Positions 146-30,565 of a DNA stretch of 64,000 nucleotides are shown one piece after another. Within the stretch, counting starts at the first letter, position 1. The number at the start of each line of letters is the position of its first letter. The translations under genes were made by a program, and so were the position numbers. The notes beneath the pieces are model-generated. The model did not search any database and had not been told where the DNA came from. It saw only the letters and a program-made list of their open reading frames with translations. The stretch covers positions 1-64,000 of the forward strand of contig JAMFRU010000060.1 of assembly GCA_026224875.1 (NCBI GenBank), in the 5' to 3' direction. The stretch is from Acidocella sp. (GTDB lineage: Bacteria; Pseudomonadota; Alphaproteobacteria; Acetobacterales; Acetobacteraceae).

Positions 146-898
146 CTACGGCGATGTGTCGATGGTTGGGCGTATGGAGATCAGGTCTATGTTGACGCGT
201 TGGGGTTGGCTTACGATGAAGACGATGGCGTCGGCTATTTCGCTGGCCGCTACGGCGCCGTCTTTGGTGACGTGGGTTTGGATTGCGGCGCGGAAGTTGG
301 GGTCTGAGATGCTTGTTGCTACTTCGGTTGTGGTGGCGCCGGGCATGAGGACGCAGACGCGGATGCCGTGGCCGCCGACTTCCTGGCGCATGGAGTCTGA
401 CATGGCGTTGAGGGCGTGTTTGCTGGCGGAATAGGCGCCGACCATGGGGCCGGTTTTGCGGCCGGCCTGGGAGGAGATGTTGATGATATCGCCACGGCCT
501 TGGGCTTTCATGGGCGCGATGGCCGCTTTGCAGGTGTAGACGGTGCCTAGCAGGTTCACGTCCATGACGCGGCGGAATTCGGCGAGGTCTGTGCCTTCGG
601 TGGTGCCCATGTGCATGATGCCGGCGGAGTTGACGAGGATGTCGAGTTTGCCGAAATGGGCGACGGTTTTTTCCACCGCTTCGGTAGCGATTTTTTCGTC
701 CACCACGTCGCCCGGGAGTGCCAGGACTTTAACGCCCAAAGCTTCGATCTTGGCTTTGAGCACTTCCAGCCGGTCGGCGCGGCGGGCGGAAATGGCGATG
801 TCGGCACCGGCTTGCGCCAAAGCGATGGCGGCGGCTTCGCCTATGCCGGATGATGCGCCGGTGACGAGGGCGACGCGCCCTGTCAAAGTTTTCGTCAT
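146..898 (-). CDS. SDR family NAD(P)-dependent oxidoreductase
   Basis: A 250-residue classical short-chain dehydrogenase. The cofactor motif TGASSGIG is at residues 13-20, an NSAG strand motif near 90, and the catalytic Ser and YSASK motif near 140-160. I start it at the ATG at 898 because AGAGGA sits just upstream; an upstream in-frame ATG at 940 lacks this. It probably oxidises or reduces a small alcohol or ketone in the cytosol; the substrate cannot be read from sequence. The terminator at 1-56 closes the unit. Upstream lies the broken selC/UGSC region, so it is not clearly in an operon. Confidence 0.9.
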   Translation of the reverse strand: MTKTLTGRVALVTGASSGIGEAAAIALAQAGADIAISARRADRLEVLKAKIEALGVKVLALPGDVVDEKIATEAVEKTVAHFGKLDILVNSAGIMHMGTTEGTDLAEFRRVMDVNLLGTVYTCKAAIAPMKAQGRGDIINISSQAGRKTGPMVGAYSASKHALNAMSDSMRQEVGGHGIRVCVLMPGATTTEVATSISDPNFRAAIQTHVTKDGAVAASEIADAIVFIVSQPQRVNIDLISIRPTIDTSP

Positions 899-953
899 GT
901 TCTGTTCCTCTTTGCAGCGTGATTTAGGCACCCGCAACATGCGGCGGCATCGG

Positions 954-1370
954 CTATGTTTGATGCAGCGTTATGGAAGCGATTGAAGTCTGGTGGCTTC
1001 CTTGGTCTTCAAAACCAATGGCCCGCGGCACGGCGGGCGTACAAGAGCCTCAACAAGCCATCGATGAGATCGTGGCATCGACCCCTAGGTCTTTGAAGCG
1101 CTGCGGGAGAGAGGCCAGAAGCTCGCGCTCGTTGATGGTATGGGTGTTGCCGAATTCGCGCCAGCTGACGAATTTCACGTCCAGGTGTTGCTTGCGAATC
1201 TCGTCTTCCAGCGTGGCGTAAACCTCGTCGCCCATGAAGAGATAATCCCAGAGCTGGGCAATGGTTTTGCCGTTGAGCGTGGGGAGGCGCCGGGCTAGCG
1301 GTTGGATTTTCTGGCGGCGTTCGCCGCTGGGCCATACGACTTCGTATTGGGTTTCGGTTGTTTTCGCCAT
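954..1370 (-). CDS. UGSC-family selenoprotein gene with in-frame UGA, apparently truncated
   Basis: Starts at the ATG at 1370 behind GGAGGA. Codons 1-106 encode a small cytosolic domain that ends in [10 protein letters not shown]. The next codon is UGA (1052-1050), followed by GSCTPAV, so reading UGA as selenocysteine gives the C-U-G-S-C-T signature of UGSC-family (seleno)proteins. From memory, Cys homologues have GCCGSCTPAV here and continue for tens of residues. Here family resemblance stops after PAVPRA (residue 117). The frame then runs 21 more codons, antisense to a tRNA-Sec 5' part, to TAG at 954-956. The function of the family is unknown to me. With selC broken here, the UGA probably acts as a stop unless another selC exists. 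Confidence 0.75.
975..1038 (+). tRNA. selC: tRNA-Sec (UCA), 5' part only: selC remnant
   Basis: The tRNA-Sec layout is clear up to the variable arm: 8-nt acceptor strand GGAAGCGA (975-982), a 6-bp D stem (985-990 with 995-1000) closed by the 4-nt loop TGGT, and a 5-bp anticodon stem (1002-1006 with 1014-1018). The anticodon loop is CTTCAAA with anticodon TCA at 1009-1011. A hairpin at 1021-1038 sits where the long variable arm belongs. No T arm with TTCGA and no TCGCTTCC 3' acceptor strand follows; the sequence is instead the UGSC gene on the other strand. The long D stem and UCA anticodon are specific to tRNA-Sec. As it stands it cannot make a functional tRNA. Confidence 0.75.
1021..1038 (-). 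promoter_or_regulatory. Possible bacterial SECIS hairpin (ambiguous)
   Basis: In the UGSC transcript a 6-bp GC stem with a 6-nt loop containing GU begins 11 nt after the UGA. This is the place and size of a bacterial SECIS, which lies just 3' of the UGA. On the other strand the same hairpin sits where the tRNA-Sec variable arm would be, so it may be only a product of the junction. Confidence 0.3.
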
Positions 1371-1447
1371 GCGGAAAATCCTCCGGAAAATGCAGTGTGA
1401 TGATACGGCGCCGGGCAATCCGGCACAACGATTATGCTGTGAGGCGC

Positions 1448-1648
1448 ACGAACGGCACCTGCGGCGAAGATGCGGGGGTTGGAGGTGGCGACATCCTGGC
1501 CGCGGAAGAAGCCGCCATCGCAAGTGGCGCAGCGCGAGATGCCGCGGCCGGTGAATTCTTCCTCTCCAGGCACGCCGAGTTTTTTGAGAGAGGCACCCGA
1601 GGCGATGATGATGACCTCGGGCTTGTAGGTTTTACCTTCGCCATCGGT
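1448..1648 (-). pseudogene. Thioredoxin reductase (TrxB-like) remnant, two fused fragments
   Basis: Translation gives a TrxB-like segment: a strand ending in VIIIASGA, then LGVPGEEEF, then RCATCDG with the redox CxxC. This passes at about 1486 straight into [13 protein letters not shown], which resembles the C-terminal FAAGDVR motif of the same enzyme. The whole NADPH-binding domain between the two is missing. There is no N-terminal FAD motif either: the frame continues upstream into a ferritin-like sequence. It is a deletion remnant and cannot be an active reductase. Confidence 0.7.
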
Positions 1649-1985
1649 GATGCTGAGGAGGAAGGAGGCAAGCGCGACGTCAGGCTCATCCAGGAGGGGT
1701 TTCAGCGAGGCCTGGCCGCCGATGGTGGAGAGGCCGAGGGTGTCGGACGCGGCGGGTGAAAACCTGCACGTGGCGGGCTTCGTCGGCGGCCTGGATGGCG
1801 AGGATTTGCATGACCTCGCGAAAATGCGGGTGCAGCCTTGCCAGCATGCGCGCGGGGACCAGCAGAGCCGCCGTTTCGTTCTCGATGAGATAGGTCATGA
1901 TCTGGACGACGGCGCCCCGGATGAGAGGTTCGGTCAGCGCGGCATCTCCGTGCCCGTTTGCAGCAACCGAGTTTGCTTCATCCAA
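1649..1985 (-). pseudogene. Ferritin-like (diiron) protein fragment, frameshifted and fused
   Basis: The frame from 1985 encodes a helical segment with [14 protein letters not shown] and then [10 protein letters not shown], the E-x-x-H pattern of ferritin-like diiron helices. Near 1750 similarity moves to another frame ([13 protein letters not shown], then LLDEPD), so there is a small indel. At about 1649 that second frame runs without a stop into the thioredoxin-reductase fragment. N-terminal helices and start are not evident. Which ferritin-like family this was cannot be decided. Confidence 0.6.
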
Positions 1986-3024: not shown

Positions 3025-3621
3025 TTAGGGGGCGGTCTGTTTTGGGGTGCTCAGCCGGTCCAGCATCTGTTCCACGATAACCAGCGCTTCGGCATGGCCG
3101 TCAGTCAAACCAAGGGCGGCTTCAGAGACGATCATGCGCGCCAGCGCCACCGCGATCATGACGATGCCGGCGGCGGAGCGGCTGCCGTCCGGGACGAGCA
3201 GGCGGCTCACGGCCTCAATCTGCAGGGCGCGGAAGTTCTCGGCGGAGCGGACGATCTCGGCGCGGATGGCCTCGCGATGCGTGGCGATCGAGCTTAATTC
3301 ACTGGCCAGAGCCGCACCCGTGGGGTCGCTGTTGAGCTCCCAAAGGGCGCGTAGCGGCTCGGGGGCGGCCAAAGCCGCCTCGAAACGCACCAGCCGGCGT
3401 TCATTCACCCGGCGCACCAGGGCGAGGATAAGATCGTCCATGGTGCGGAAGTAATAGTACAGGAGCTGGGTTTTCAGCCCGGCCTTGGCGGCCACCTGGC
3501 GGGCGGTGAGCGCGGGCAGGCCTTCGTCGCGCAGCACCTCTTCGGCGGCGTCGATAAAGCGGGCACGCGTCTGCGACCCTTCCAAACCCAATCTGCGCGT
3601 TTGCACCACTGTATCCATCAT
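3025..3621 (-). CDS. TetR family transcriptional regulator
   Basis: A 198-residue protein with an N-terminal TetR helix-turn-helix (about residues 12-58), including LTARQVAAKAGL and LLYYYF, followed by a variable helical ligand domain. The start at 3621 (MMDTVV) follows AGAGGTGC; earlier in-frame ATG codons have no clear site. It lies 125 bp upstream of the dioxygenase and points the same way, so it probably controls that gene and itself. I did not find a convincing operator. Confidence 0.85.
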   Translation of the reverse strand: MMDTVVQTRRLGLEGSQTRARFIDAAEEVLRDEGLPALTARQVAAKAGLKTQLLYYYFRTMDDLILALVRRVNERRLVRFEAALAAPEPLRALWELNSDPTGAALASELSSIATHREAIRAEIVRSAENFRALQIEAVSRLLVPDGSRSAAGIVMIAVALARMIVSEAALGLTDGHAEALVIVEQMLDRLSTPKQTAP

Positions 3622-3697
3622 GCACCTCTGACGCTGTTTGGAGTGCGATTGCAACTCTACTTCAGTATGTTTCAAAACGAAGTCTTAGACATTTTGT

Positions 3698-3749
3698 GGA
3701 GATGACAAAAGAGCCGCTAGCGCGGAGATGACAAAAGAGCCGCTAGCGC
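3698..3749. repeat. Tandem direct repeat, 2 x 26 bp
   Basis: Two identical adjacent copies of a 26-bp unit beginning GGAGATGACAAAAGAGCC, each containing GCCGCTAGCGC. It lies in the gap between the TetR gene and the 3' end of the esterase gene. Confidence 0.9.
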
Positions 3750-3773
3750 GGCGGGGGGTGCCGCGCCTGCACG

Positions 3774-4703
3774 TCAGCTGAGCTGCTGCCTGAGCCAGGC
3801 GCCGCAATTTTCGATGGCCTCCTTGCCCATCGGCACCGGGAAGGAGAGAAAACCGTGGATCGCGCCTTCATAATTCACCAGCTCGACCAGCACGCCTGCT
3901 TCCGCCAAGCACTTGGCATAGGCGTGGCCCTGGTCGCGTAGCAGGTCGTATTCGGCGGTGAGAACCAGAGCGGGCGGCAAATTAGCGAGCGATTGCGCGC
4001 GCAAGGGCGAAATATACGGGCTGCACGCATCGGCACCAGCGATGTAACTGGCATGGTTGAAATCCATCATTTCCTGACTGATGTAGAACCCCTCCCCTGT
4101 TTCGGCCATCGAGCCACGCGGGGCCCCTTCACGCCGGCCGGCGGGATCGGTGCCCGGGTAGATGAGCAGTTGCGCCGAGAGTTTTGCGCCGTTGTTGTCG
4201 CGCAGATACTGCGCCGTGACAGCCGCGAGATTGCCGCCGGCACTGTCGCCCGCAACTGCCAGACGGGTGGCATCGGCGCCGATTTCGGCGGCGTGCGACA
4301 CAGCCCAGTCGATGGCGGCCAGGCAGTCGTGCAGCGCTGCCGGGAAGGGATGCGCCGGTGCAAGGCGGTACGAGACGGAGACGACAACACAATCCGCCGC
4401 GATAGCGAGCTGGCGGGTAATTTCATCATGCGTGTTCACATCGCCCGAGACGAAGCCGCCGCCATGGAAGAACATGACCAGCGGCAGAGCCACACCCTGG
4501 CGCGGCGCATAAATGCGAATGGGGACCAGGCCTTCCGGGGTCGATAATATGCGGTTCTCGACATGGGCGACCGGCGTGATGGGGCCCATGGCGGCCGGTG
4601 GCATGTCGATGGGCAGCACTTTGCCCTCGGCGATGGCGCGGGACATGGCAACAGCTTCCTGCAGACGCGGCAGGGTTATGGAAAATTGCGGATTGACAGG
4701 CAT
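3774..4703 (-). CDS. Alpha/beta hydrolase, hormone-sensitive-lipase type (esterase)
   Basis: A 309-residue esterase of the HSL/acetyl-esterase class. The oxyanion-hole motif FFHGGG is near residue 80, the nucleophile elbow GDSAGGN near 150, and the catalytic Asp and His fall in the C-terminal third (EYDLLRDQ and AIHGF). The start at 4703 follows GGGGAGGTAAAA. No signal peptide is seen, so it is cytosolic and would hydrolyse short-chain esters. It is divergent from the cupin gene at 4901, with about 200 bp between them that could hold both promoters. Confidence 0.9.
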   Translation of the reverse strand: MPVNPQFSITLPRLQEAVAMSRAIAEGKVLPIDMPPAAMGPITPVAHVENRILSTPEGLVPIRIYAPRQGVALPLVMFFHGGGFVSGDVNTHDEITRQLAIAADCVVVSVSYRLAPAHPFPAALHDCLAAIDWAVSHAAEIGADATRLAVAGDSAGGNLAAVTAQYLRDNNGAKLSAQLLIYPGTDPAGRREGAPRGSMAETGEGFYISQEMMDFNHASYIAGADACSPYISPLRAQSLANLPPALVLTAEYDLLRDQGHAYAKCLAEAGVLVELVNYEGAIHGFLSFPVPMGKEAIENCGAWLRQQLS

Positions 4704-4900
4704 TTTTACCTCCCCATTTGTTTTTAAGCGCCTCACCGGCAGCGGTTTGTGCCAGCGTAGTTCACAAACAGTTACGAAACCAGACCTGATGGCGGGTGCA
4801 TTCATGAACTCAGATCATAAGGCCATGCGGATTACCGGCACTAATGGCGCTGGCAGGCTGACACTAAGTAAGCACCGGCCGCAGATTAAAGGAACCGCAT

Positions 4901-6810: not shown

Positions 6811-6892
6811 GGCCGGGGCGGAGAAACGGCCTTCAACCGAACCAAGAAACATTTCCTTGTTCGGTTAAACGGGCCATTTCCTCGCCCCGGCC
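6811..6892. repeat. Long imperfect inverted repeat (about 41 bp per arm)
   Basis: Arm 6811-6851 and the reverse complement of 6852-6892 both begin GGCCGGGGCG and both contain AACCGAAC, with a few mismatches and a 2-nt bulge. The arms abut, so the transcript could form one long hairpin between the alcohol dehydrogenase and the convergent CoA transferase. There is no T tract. Confidence 0.8.
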
Positions 6893-6903
6893 AAATTCAG
6901 AAA

Positions 6904-6933
6904 CGCGTCTTGCGGCACGCGCCGCAAGACGCG
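6904..6933. terminator. Perfect 13-bp stem-loop between convergent genes
   Basis: CGCGTCTTGCGGC (6904-6916) pairs perfectly with 6921-6933 around a 4-nt loop, just before the stop of the convergent CoA transferase gene. It is terminator-like in position but lacks a U run. Confidence 0.6.
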
Positions 6934-28279: not shown

Positions 28280-30565
28280 ATGACATCTCGCATTGTACCA
28301 GGCGTAAAGCCTTATAAGAGTGCCGCGGGCGGCTGGGGGGCGTTGCGGGCCACCGCCAACGCGGTGCGTGAGCAGATGGACCTCACCGAGGCGCCGCTGC
28401 TGCTGTACCGCACCAACAAGCCGGCGGGGTTCGACTGCCCCGGCTGCGCCTGGCCGGATAAGGCGCATGGCTCCACCTTTCAGTTTTGCGAAAACGGCGC
28501 CAAGGCAGTGACCTGGGAAGCCACGAAAAAACGCGTGACGCCGGATTTTTTCGCAGCCCATACCGTGTCTGAACTGCTGGGCTGGACGGACCATGATCTG
28601 GAGGATGAGGGGCGGCTGACCCACCCCATGGCCTATGATGCGGCCAGCGATACGTACCGCGAAGTGGGTTGGGACGAGGCGTTTGGCCGCATTGGGGCGG
28701 CGCTGCAGGCACTGCCTGATCCGAATATGGCGGAGTTTTATACCTCCGGCCGGACCTCCAACGAAGCGGCGTTCATGTACCAGCTGTTCGCGCGGGAATA
28801 TGGCACGAATAATTTTCCCGATTGCTCGAACATGTGCCACGAGGCGACCAGCGTCGGCCTGCCGAAATCCATTGGCATTGGCAAAGGCACCGTGTCCCTC
28901 GATGATTTTGACCATTGCGAGCTGCTGATCGCAATCGGGCATAATCCGGGGACCAATCATCCGCGCATGATGGGCACGTTGCATGAGGTATCGCGGCGCG
29001 GTGTGCCCATCATCGTGTTCAACCCGCTGCGGGAGCGGGCACTGGAGCGGTTTACCGACCCGCAAAATCCGGTCGAGATGGCGAGCATGGGCTCGACGCC
29101 GATTGCGTCGTCCTACTACCAGGTGAAGGTGGGCGGCGATGCCGCGGCGCTGAAAGGCATTATGAAGGCGTTGCTGGCGCTGGATGAGGCCAATGGTGAC
29201 GCTTTGGATCATGGGTTTATTGCAGAACACACCAATGGGTTTGATGAGCTGGCCAAGGATTTGCGGGCGACCGGCTGGGCGGAGATTGAGGCGGCCAGCG
29301 GGTTGCCGCGCGCGGCACTTGAGGCGGTGGCTGCGGCCTATGCCAAGTCCAACGCCACCATCGTGAGCTACGGCATGGGGGTGACGCAGCATAGCAAGGG
29401 CACCTCCACCGTGCAGCAGATTGCGAATCTGCTGCTGCTGCGCGGTAATTTTGGCAAACCGGGGGCCGGTATCTGCCCGTTGCGCGGGCATTCCAACGTG
29501 CAGGGTGACCGCACAGTGGGGATTACCGAGAAGCCCGGCAAAGAATTGCTTGAGGCGATCGAGCGCAGTTACGGTTTTACCCCGCCGCGCGCGCATGGGC
29601 ATGATGCGGTGCAGGCGATGCAGGCCATTGTGGCCGGCGAGTCGAAAATTCTGATTTCGCTTGGCGGCAATCTGGCCGTAGCACTGCCGGACCCGGAACA
29701 ATGTTTTGCGGCGATGCGCAAGCTCGATCTGGCCGTGCATATCGCGACGAAACTGAACCGCTCACATCTGCTGATCGGCAAGGATTCCATCCTCCTGCCC
29801 TGCCTGGGCCGCACGGAGCAGGATATTCAGCTTTCCGGCGCGCAATCGGTAACCGTTGAGGATTCAATGTCGATGGTGCATGCCTCCGTGGGTAAACTGC
29901 CGCCGGCGTCCGAAGCTTTGCTATCGGAGCCCGCCATTGTGGCCGGCATGGCACATGCCACTTTGCCTCACAGCAAGGTTGATTGGTCCGGGCTGGTCGC
30001 GGATTATGATTTGATCCGGGATGGGATTGAATCCGTATTTCCGGATTTCAAGAATTATAATTTGCGCATCCGCGTGCCGGGCGGGTTTCGTTTGTCCTTG
30101 CCGCCGACGGAGCGGGTTTGGAAAACCGCCTCCGGCAAGGCCGAGTTTTTGGCACTGACAGGTCTTGAGGTGGATATGCCCATGACAACGGAAGCACCGT
30201 TCCGGCTGACCACGATACGCAGCCATGACCAGTATAACACCACCATCTACGGGCTGGATGATCGCTATCGCGGCGTGTTCGGCAGGCGGGACGTTATTTT
30301 CATGAGCAAAGATGACTTAGCGGCGCAGGCGCTGGAACATGGCGATGTTGTGGATGTGGAGACCGTGATGCCCGGGGAAACTGTCCGGCGGCTGGCAGGG
30401 TTTACCGTGATTGCCTATGATATCGCGCCCGGTTCCGTGGCGGCTTATTATCCCGAAGCCAATGGGCTTGTGCCGCTTTCCTATCATGATGCGCAGAGCG
30501 GCACGCCGTCCTACAAATCCGTGCCGGTTAAAATTTCGCGGGCGCTGCTGCCTGCCGCACTCTGA
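28280..30565 (+). CDS. Molybdopterin oxidoreductase, FdhF/YdeP type formate dehydrogenase
   Basis: A 761-residue Mo/W-bisPGD enzyme of the FdhF/YdeP family, cytosolic (no signal peptide). FDCPGCAWPD near residue 53 lies at the N-terminal cluster region and SNMCHEATSVGLP near 180 carries the cysteine that would bind molybdenum; it is Cys, not selenocysteine. C-terminal MopB-like domain motifs (FRLTTIRSHDQYNTTIYG) are present. The ATG at 28280 follows GGAGG. It heads an operon with mobB, mobA and fdhD, the genes that mature such enzymes, supporting a role in formate oxidation. YdeP-like members of unknown substrate exist, so formate is inferred. Confidence 0.8.
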   Translation: MTSRIVPGVKPYKSAAGGWGALRATANAVREQMDLTEAPLLLYRTNKPAGFDCPGCAWPDKAHGSTFQFCENGAKAVTWEATKKRVTPDFFAAHTVSELLGWTDHDLEDEGRLTHPMAYDAASDTYREVGWDEAFGRIGAALQALPDPNMAEFYTSGRTSNEAAFMYQLFAREYGTNNFPDCSNMCHEATSVGLPKSIGIGKGTVSLDDFDHCELLIAIGHNPGTNHPRMMGTLHEVSRRGVPIIVFNPLRERALERFTDPQNPVEMASMGSTPIASSYYQVKVGGDAAALKGIMKALLALDEANGDALDHGFIAEHTNGFDELAKDLRATGWAEIEAASGLPRAALEAVAAAYAKSNATIVSYGMGVTQHSKGTSTVQQIANLLLLRGNFGKPGAGICPLRGHSNVQGDRTVGITEKPGKELLEAIERSYGFTPPRAHGHDAVQAMQAIVAGESKILISLGGNLAVALPDPEQCFAAMRKLDLAVHIATKLNRSHLLIGKDSILLPCLGRTEQDIQLSGAQSVTVEDSMSMVHASVGKLPPASEALLSEPAIVAGMAHATLPHSKVDWSGLVADYDLIRDGIESVFPDFKNYNLRIRVPGGFRLSLPPTERVWKTASGKAEFLALTGLEVDMPMTTEAPFRLTTIRSHDQYNTTIYGLDDRYRGVFGRRDVIFMSKDDLAAQALEHGDVVDVETVMPGETVRRLAGFTVIAYDIAPGSVAAYYPEANGLVPLSYHDAQSGTPSYKSVPVKISRALLPAAL

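Follow-up and report, generated by a model that had tools for sequence, protein, structure and literature searches.

Remnants of selC and a UGSC selenoprotein gene, joined at a short repeat, in a probably wrecked selenocysteine island of Acidocella sp.

Introduction

Did a single deletion cut the gene of the selenocysteine tRNA (tRNA-Sec, selC) together with a selenoprotein gene, and was selenocysteine (Sec) decoding thereby lost from an Acidocella lineage? The question arises from a joint about 1 kb from the start of contig C128, at which the 5' part of selC meets, on the opposite strand, a fragment of a gene of the UGSC selenoprotein family. The window analysed here is the whole stretch of bases 1-64000 of this contig, which belongs to a draft genome of 145 contigs, 3.87 Mb in size and 95.1% complete. 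The original prediction took the first fragment for a truncated tRNA-Sec gene, ascribed both truncations to one probable event and, provided that this is the only selC, read the UGA of the selenoprotein gene as a true stop, naming a false join in the assembly as the alternative. At the very start of the contig, positions 1-60 hold an inverted repeat resembling a terminator (AAAAAAGAGGCCTGCC...GGCAGGCCTCTTTTTT), at which the assembly may have broken.

Loss of Sec decoding is an already known kind of event in bacteria. The available part of PMC1273633 describes a recent loss by a selB frameshift in Yersinia pestis CO92/Mediaevalis, and that of PMC4607533 a loss in Helicobacter pylori and H. acinonychis before their split. 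No case of a bacterium with a selC remnant fused to a selenoprotein gene was found in the literature covered, which includes the available parts of PMC4607533, PMC5330540, PMC1273633, PMC13188914, PMC5029168, PMC1794560, PMC2830990 and PMC2398784, subscription journals lying mostly outside this scope.

Results

Two gene fragments abut in the window.

975-1027, forward strand: 5' remnant of selC (tRNA-Sec), matching in 53 of 53 letters the whole selC genes that four genomes of the genus carry; RF01852 at 35.1-38.3 bits
1028-1370, reverse strand: N-terminal part of the UGSC selenoprotein gene; PF24696, 83% DNA identity to the relative G013 over 1016-1360

The complete identity of the first fragment to selC in all four same-genus genomes that carry the locus (G013, G018, G021 and G033) is the decisive check of its homology, and bears out the prediction of a truncated tRNA-Sec gene. 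As predicted for its structure, too, the remnant comprises the 5' strand of the acceptor, a D arm with a 6-bp stem and a 4-nt loop, and the anticodon arm with the loop CTTCAAA (UCA anticodon in the RF01852 alignment), and lacks the T arm and the 3' acceptor strand, the sequence after 1027 being that of the UGSC gene. It also includes the 5' strand of the variable arm. The covariance model RF01852 matched 976-1051 at 35.1 bits (E 9.8e-4, 20 kb searched) and 975-1045 at 38.3 bits (E 8.1e-7, 106 bases given, the match cut at its 3' end). Both scores lie under the gathering score of 47 bits, as is expected because the remnant is a fragment. ARAGORN reported no tRNA gene in the window. Since the deletion joins selC to the UGSC gene, the variable arm that the remnant seems to form is chimeric: only its 5' strand stems from selC, and from 1028 selenoprotein letters pair with it by chance. 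Elsewhere in the window, 6818-6933 matched the Pseudomonas sRNA P6 of Rfam at 35.1 bits, under the gathering score of 50, mostly through a hairpin.

The UGSC remnant starts with an ATG at 1370 and keeps its reading frame intact up to an in-frame TGA at 1052-1050, the Sec codon, which lies within the UGSC motif; the joint follows after the motif. PF24696 scores 26.9 bits (cut-off 25) on the stretch of open frame that precedes the UGA and 42.5 bits on the remnant read through its single TGA, the latter over profile positions 1-125 of 172. The homology then stops at the same joint as the selC remnant, as the prediction had it, leaving an incomplete domain whose C-terminal part is gone. The copy in the window shares the UGSC motif with its TGA with the family (PF24696, NF041046) but ends shortly after the motif, unlike the full-length genes of the relatives, which have about 580 codons with the motif in the first third. 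NCBIfam gave no match of the UGSC open reading frame of the window to NF041046 (curated cut-off 125 bits), and the intact UGSC protein of G013 also stays under that cut-off (33.9 vs 125 bits). A fusion of UGSC with Unknown_1 is a known arrangement in this selenoprotein family, according to the available part of PMC2398784.

Comparison with close relatives, as suggested with the prediction, revealed a complete island in the same gene context in four genomes of the genus. Its order is SDR - selC - UGSC - TrxR - TauD - TetR - selB - selA - selD - esterase in all four, that of G018 having been pieced together from a pair of contigs that end in TetR and selB. The tRNA-Sec of each is complete (78.5 bits, anticodon TCA), and SelA, SelB and SelD of G013 pass the NCBIfam cut-offs.

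1019-1026: TGGCCCGC, the repeat at the deletion joint between selC and the UGSC gene; in the four relatives a copy stands on either side of the missing stretch
1021-1038, reverse strand: hairpin after the UGA, a probable SECIS, whose 3' strand is now part of the shared repeat; stem recovered in a consensus fold from 30 distinct UGSC sequences

In the four relatives both selC and the UGSC gene are whole around the stretch that is missing here, and the copies of TGGCCCGC lie 1,434, 1,433, 1,433 and 1,436 bp apart, one in the variable arm of the tRNA and the other in the hairpin that directly follows the UGSC UGA. The window has the same arrangement minus the 1,433-1,436 bp between these 8-nt repeats, in agreement with the claim that one event cut both genes. 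Base 1027 is still a selC letter, differing from the UGSC gene of all four relatives, and from 1028 the window follows the UGSC gene on the strand opposite to selC; the deletion took the remainder of selC and almost everything that follows the Sec codon in the UGSC gene. By itself, an 8-mer repeat is not rare, and this counts against the deletion between short repeats as the main explanation: in G013, selC and the next 1.5 kb have 8-mers in common at nine positions vs 2.5 in 1000 shuffles, one of the nine being a 10-mer elsewhere, away from the joint. The likeness at the joint is longer than the 8-mer, extending as TGGCCCGC-loop-GCGGGCG on both sides, because each side is a hairpin.

The finding of UGSC in only 5 of the 38 genomes of the genus, cut short in the own genome and full in G013, G018, G021 and G033, suggests that the Sec island may have been acquired by transfer. 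The same count could be taken to mean that there was no ancestral Sec island here and that the selC piece arrived next to the UGSC gene by insertion or transfer; this is largely refuted by four relatives in which the whole island stands among the same genes, and we consider it barely credible. SelA was matched in 27 of 120 genomes, the only same-genus ones being the same four. In an rpoB tree (about 720-800 bases, 27 of the 38 genomes, G033 being left out for lack of an rpoB match) the own genome pairs with G013 (support 0.968), and the tree favours neither a single clade nor several for the Sec-carrying genomes (support 0.000). The island (L066, L067, L068 and L070) is patchy in the genus, and tRNA-Sec genes of other family members have different variable arms.

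The fold of the hairpin was derived from 32 UGSC loci (28 plus four overlapping stretches), of which 35 matches reaching the query end gave 30 distinct stretches, all carrying the TGA. The consensus places a GCCCGC/GCGGGC stem directly after the TGA. When folded singly, all rows except L100 form the hairpin; one pair is kept through changes on both sides in L094 and L098, and L097 has one match with one pair fewer. The hairpin is likely a bacterial SECIS, a role that we can only infer because a conserved peptide is encoded by these letters too. The variable arm of the tRNA in the four relatives has the same stem as the UGSC hairpin. Among 17 other genomes examined, 15 yielded a tRNA-Sec; none of these 15 genes contains TGGCCCGC, and the shared repeat therefore appears local to the clade, a stem common to tRNA and SECIS in general being rejected on this count.

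The genes around the joint divide into intact and broken ones.

146-940, reverse strand: SDR gene flanking selC, intact and kept; PF00106, same position in four relatives
1446-1660, reverse strand: thioredoxin-reductase-like (TrxR) gene, two fused fragments, about 345 bp between them being absent; aligned to G013 by blastn and tblastn, partial NCBIfam TRX_reduct match
1634-1922, reverse strand: AurF-like gene, a frameshifted fragment foreign to the relatives' island; two tblastn pieces, PF11583 at 32.2 bits
2048-2974, reverse strand: TauD-family dioxygenase gene, intact and kept; PF02668, same position in relatives
3025-3675, reverse strand: TetR-family regulator gene, intact and kept; PF00440, same position in relatives
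3676-3773, no strand: site of the missing selB, selA and selD, which relatives carry as selB-selA-selD at the same place
3774-4805, reverse strand: esterase (alpha/beta hydrolase) gene, intact and kept; PF07859, same position in relatives

Hence TrxR is broken and the non-selenium neighbours SDR, TauD, TetR and esterase are intact. The AurF-like fragment sits between the TrxR remnant and TauD, and its G013 homologue lies on another contig (L071:1737-2990). Between TetR and the esterase, where relatives have selB, selA and selD, the window has a gap of 98 bp, and a 26-bp unit repeated 2.1 times with no mismatch (3698-3751) lies exactly at this site.

The rest of the own genome holds no replacement. 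RF01852 gave 11 matches, one of them the remnant in the window; the other ten all overlap ordinary tRNAs (Ser, Leu, Gly, Tyr, Met and Cys), and an intact selC elsewhere, on which the prediction of lost decoding hinged, is thereby rejected for the draft genome. SelA had no match in the draft, 95.1% complete as it is. The SelB model gave seven hits, the best at 99.2 bits vs a cut-off of 242, and all seven are other proteins (IF-2, CysN/C, TypA, LepA, EF-G, PrfC and Der), each over its own curated cut-off; likewise, the three hits of the SelD model (best 64.5 bits vs a cut-off of 125) each pass the curated cut-off of another family, being ThiL, PurL and an sll0787-type AIR-synthase-like protein. 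The genome thus does not hold the set of selA, selB, selC and selD needed for Sec decoding, and we infer that the machinery is lacking also in the unassembled part, about 5% of the genome possibly being missing. Since the only trace of a tRNA-Sec is broken, SelA is absent and the SelB and SelD hits belong to other families, the UGA is now most likely a real stop. Judged from the draft sequence, the predictions of lost decoding and of a UGA turned stop are supported, the latter as most likely right.

These results also bear on a false join, in which pieces of an intact island, or two strains of a metagenome, were wrongly assembled and Sec is still decoded. The draft state of the genome with its 145 contigs, the position of the joint 1 kb from the contig start and the existence of close genomes with an intact island would all suit such an artefact. 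However, SelA, genuine SelB and SelD and the missing UGSC half were not encountered in the rest of the assembly, although for the UGSC half, searched at E 0.01 with no control genome, the empty answer shows little. In addition, the same contig lacks selB, selA and selD at the site where they belong, TrxR carries further, separate lesions, and the 8-nt overlap is shorter than those on which assemblers usually rely. The artefact named in the prediction is accordingly very unlikely.

Other selenoprotein candidates gave negative results. Formate dehydrogenase was rejected as a further selenoprotein, none of the rows listed for five genomes having an in-frame stop and none scoring over the family cut-off; with FdhA as the sole other family searched, the lack of such stops suggests that UGSC may be the chief selenoprotein or even the only one. 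In the window, a formate-dehydrogenase-like gene at 28601-30535 has no in-frame stops and falls under the FdhA family cut-off. The TauD gene of G033 seemed to carry a TGA in frame, which was likewise rejected, as it lies upstream of a likely start codon.

As to the age of the loss, the selC remnant has no change in the 44-52 letters freed of their job, giving a 95% upper bound of 0.058-0.068 substitutions per site. dS to G013 is 0.39-0.83 for the UGSC remnant and five neighbours, and dN/dS is 0.165 for the remnant and 0.13-0.21 for the neighbours. The unchanged tRNA remnant and the low dN/dS of the UGSC remnant suggest that Sec decoding was probably lost recently in this lineage. dN to the other three relatives is 0.15, 0.19 and 0.24 for the remnant and 0.13, 0.15 and 0.19 for G013, the slightly higher values being at most a hint of relaxed constraint. 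An open UGSC frame with a neighbour-like dN/dS fits a recent loss and also some kept function. The remnants might accordingly have been retained for a new job, the selC part for example as the source of a small RNA or the UGSC part as a truncated protein that stops at the UGA, which would explain the unchanged tRNA part, the open frame and its dN/dS of 0.165 vs G013. Yet the unchanged tRNA part and the open frame are expected of a recent loss as well, the UGSC motif is placed at the stop and beyond it, the adjoining TrxR gene is broken, and dN of the remnant to the other three relatives is slightly above that of G013; we give a new job hardly any weight.

Discussion

Based on the joint, the comparison with intact relatives and the searches of the own genome, we propose that the locus is very probably a wrecked Sec island, in which a deletion between short repeats cut selC and the UGSC gene together, Sec decoding was lost and the UGA became a stop. 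The ancestor would have had the order SDR - selC - UGSC - TrxR - TauD - TetR - selB - selA - selD - esterase, with the UGSC gene facing selC. A deletion of about 1.43 kb between the repeats, presumably by strand slippage or short-homology joining, would have removed the 3' part of selC and almost all of the UGSC gene past the Sec codon in a single step. The removal of selB, selA and selD and the breaking of TrxR would be events separate from this deletion. The present organism would then no longer insert selenocysteine, and the UGA of the UGSC remnant would be read as a stop.

In the available part of PMC1273633, Y. pestis resembles this genome in that the loss is recent and has left remnants, among them a selenoprotein gene still carrying its UGA, but there selA, selC and selD are kept, whereas here selC and the selenoprotein gene were cut together and selA, selB and selD are gone. 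The Helicobacter case, as far as covered by the available part of PMC4607533, is alike in that loss of the trait within a genus is traced through relatives; there a functional selA survives, with no other sel gene found, whereas the traces here are fragments of selC and of the selenoprotein gene. Against this background, the fused selC/selenoprotein scar is a new and unusually legible detail, and the stem shared by tRNA and SECIS may be new.

The shared stem offers a testable suggestion for why the deletion fell where it did. In this clade, the variable arm of tRNA-Sec and the neighbouring probable SECIS hairpin share the stem TGGCCCGC..GCGGGCG, and the two copies, imperfect direct repeats separated by 1.43 kb, might form a built-in deletion trap that ends Sec decoding in one step; the stem might be kept since one factor, SelB or SelA, reads both. 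We regard this as an improbable, if specific, proposal.

Loss of Sec decoding is usually inferred from gene absence alone. Here the joint, the repeats and the kept neighbours are legible, and the route of the loss can therefore be followed at single-base resolution. With selC facing the selenoprotein gene, one deletion would have taken the decoder and the selenoprotein together, and a lasting stage with only one of the two genes would thus not be needed.
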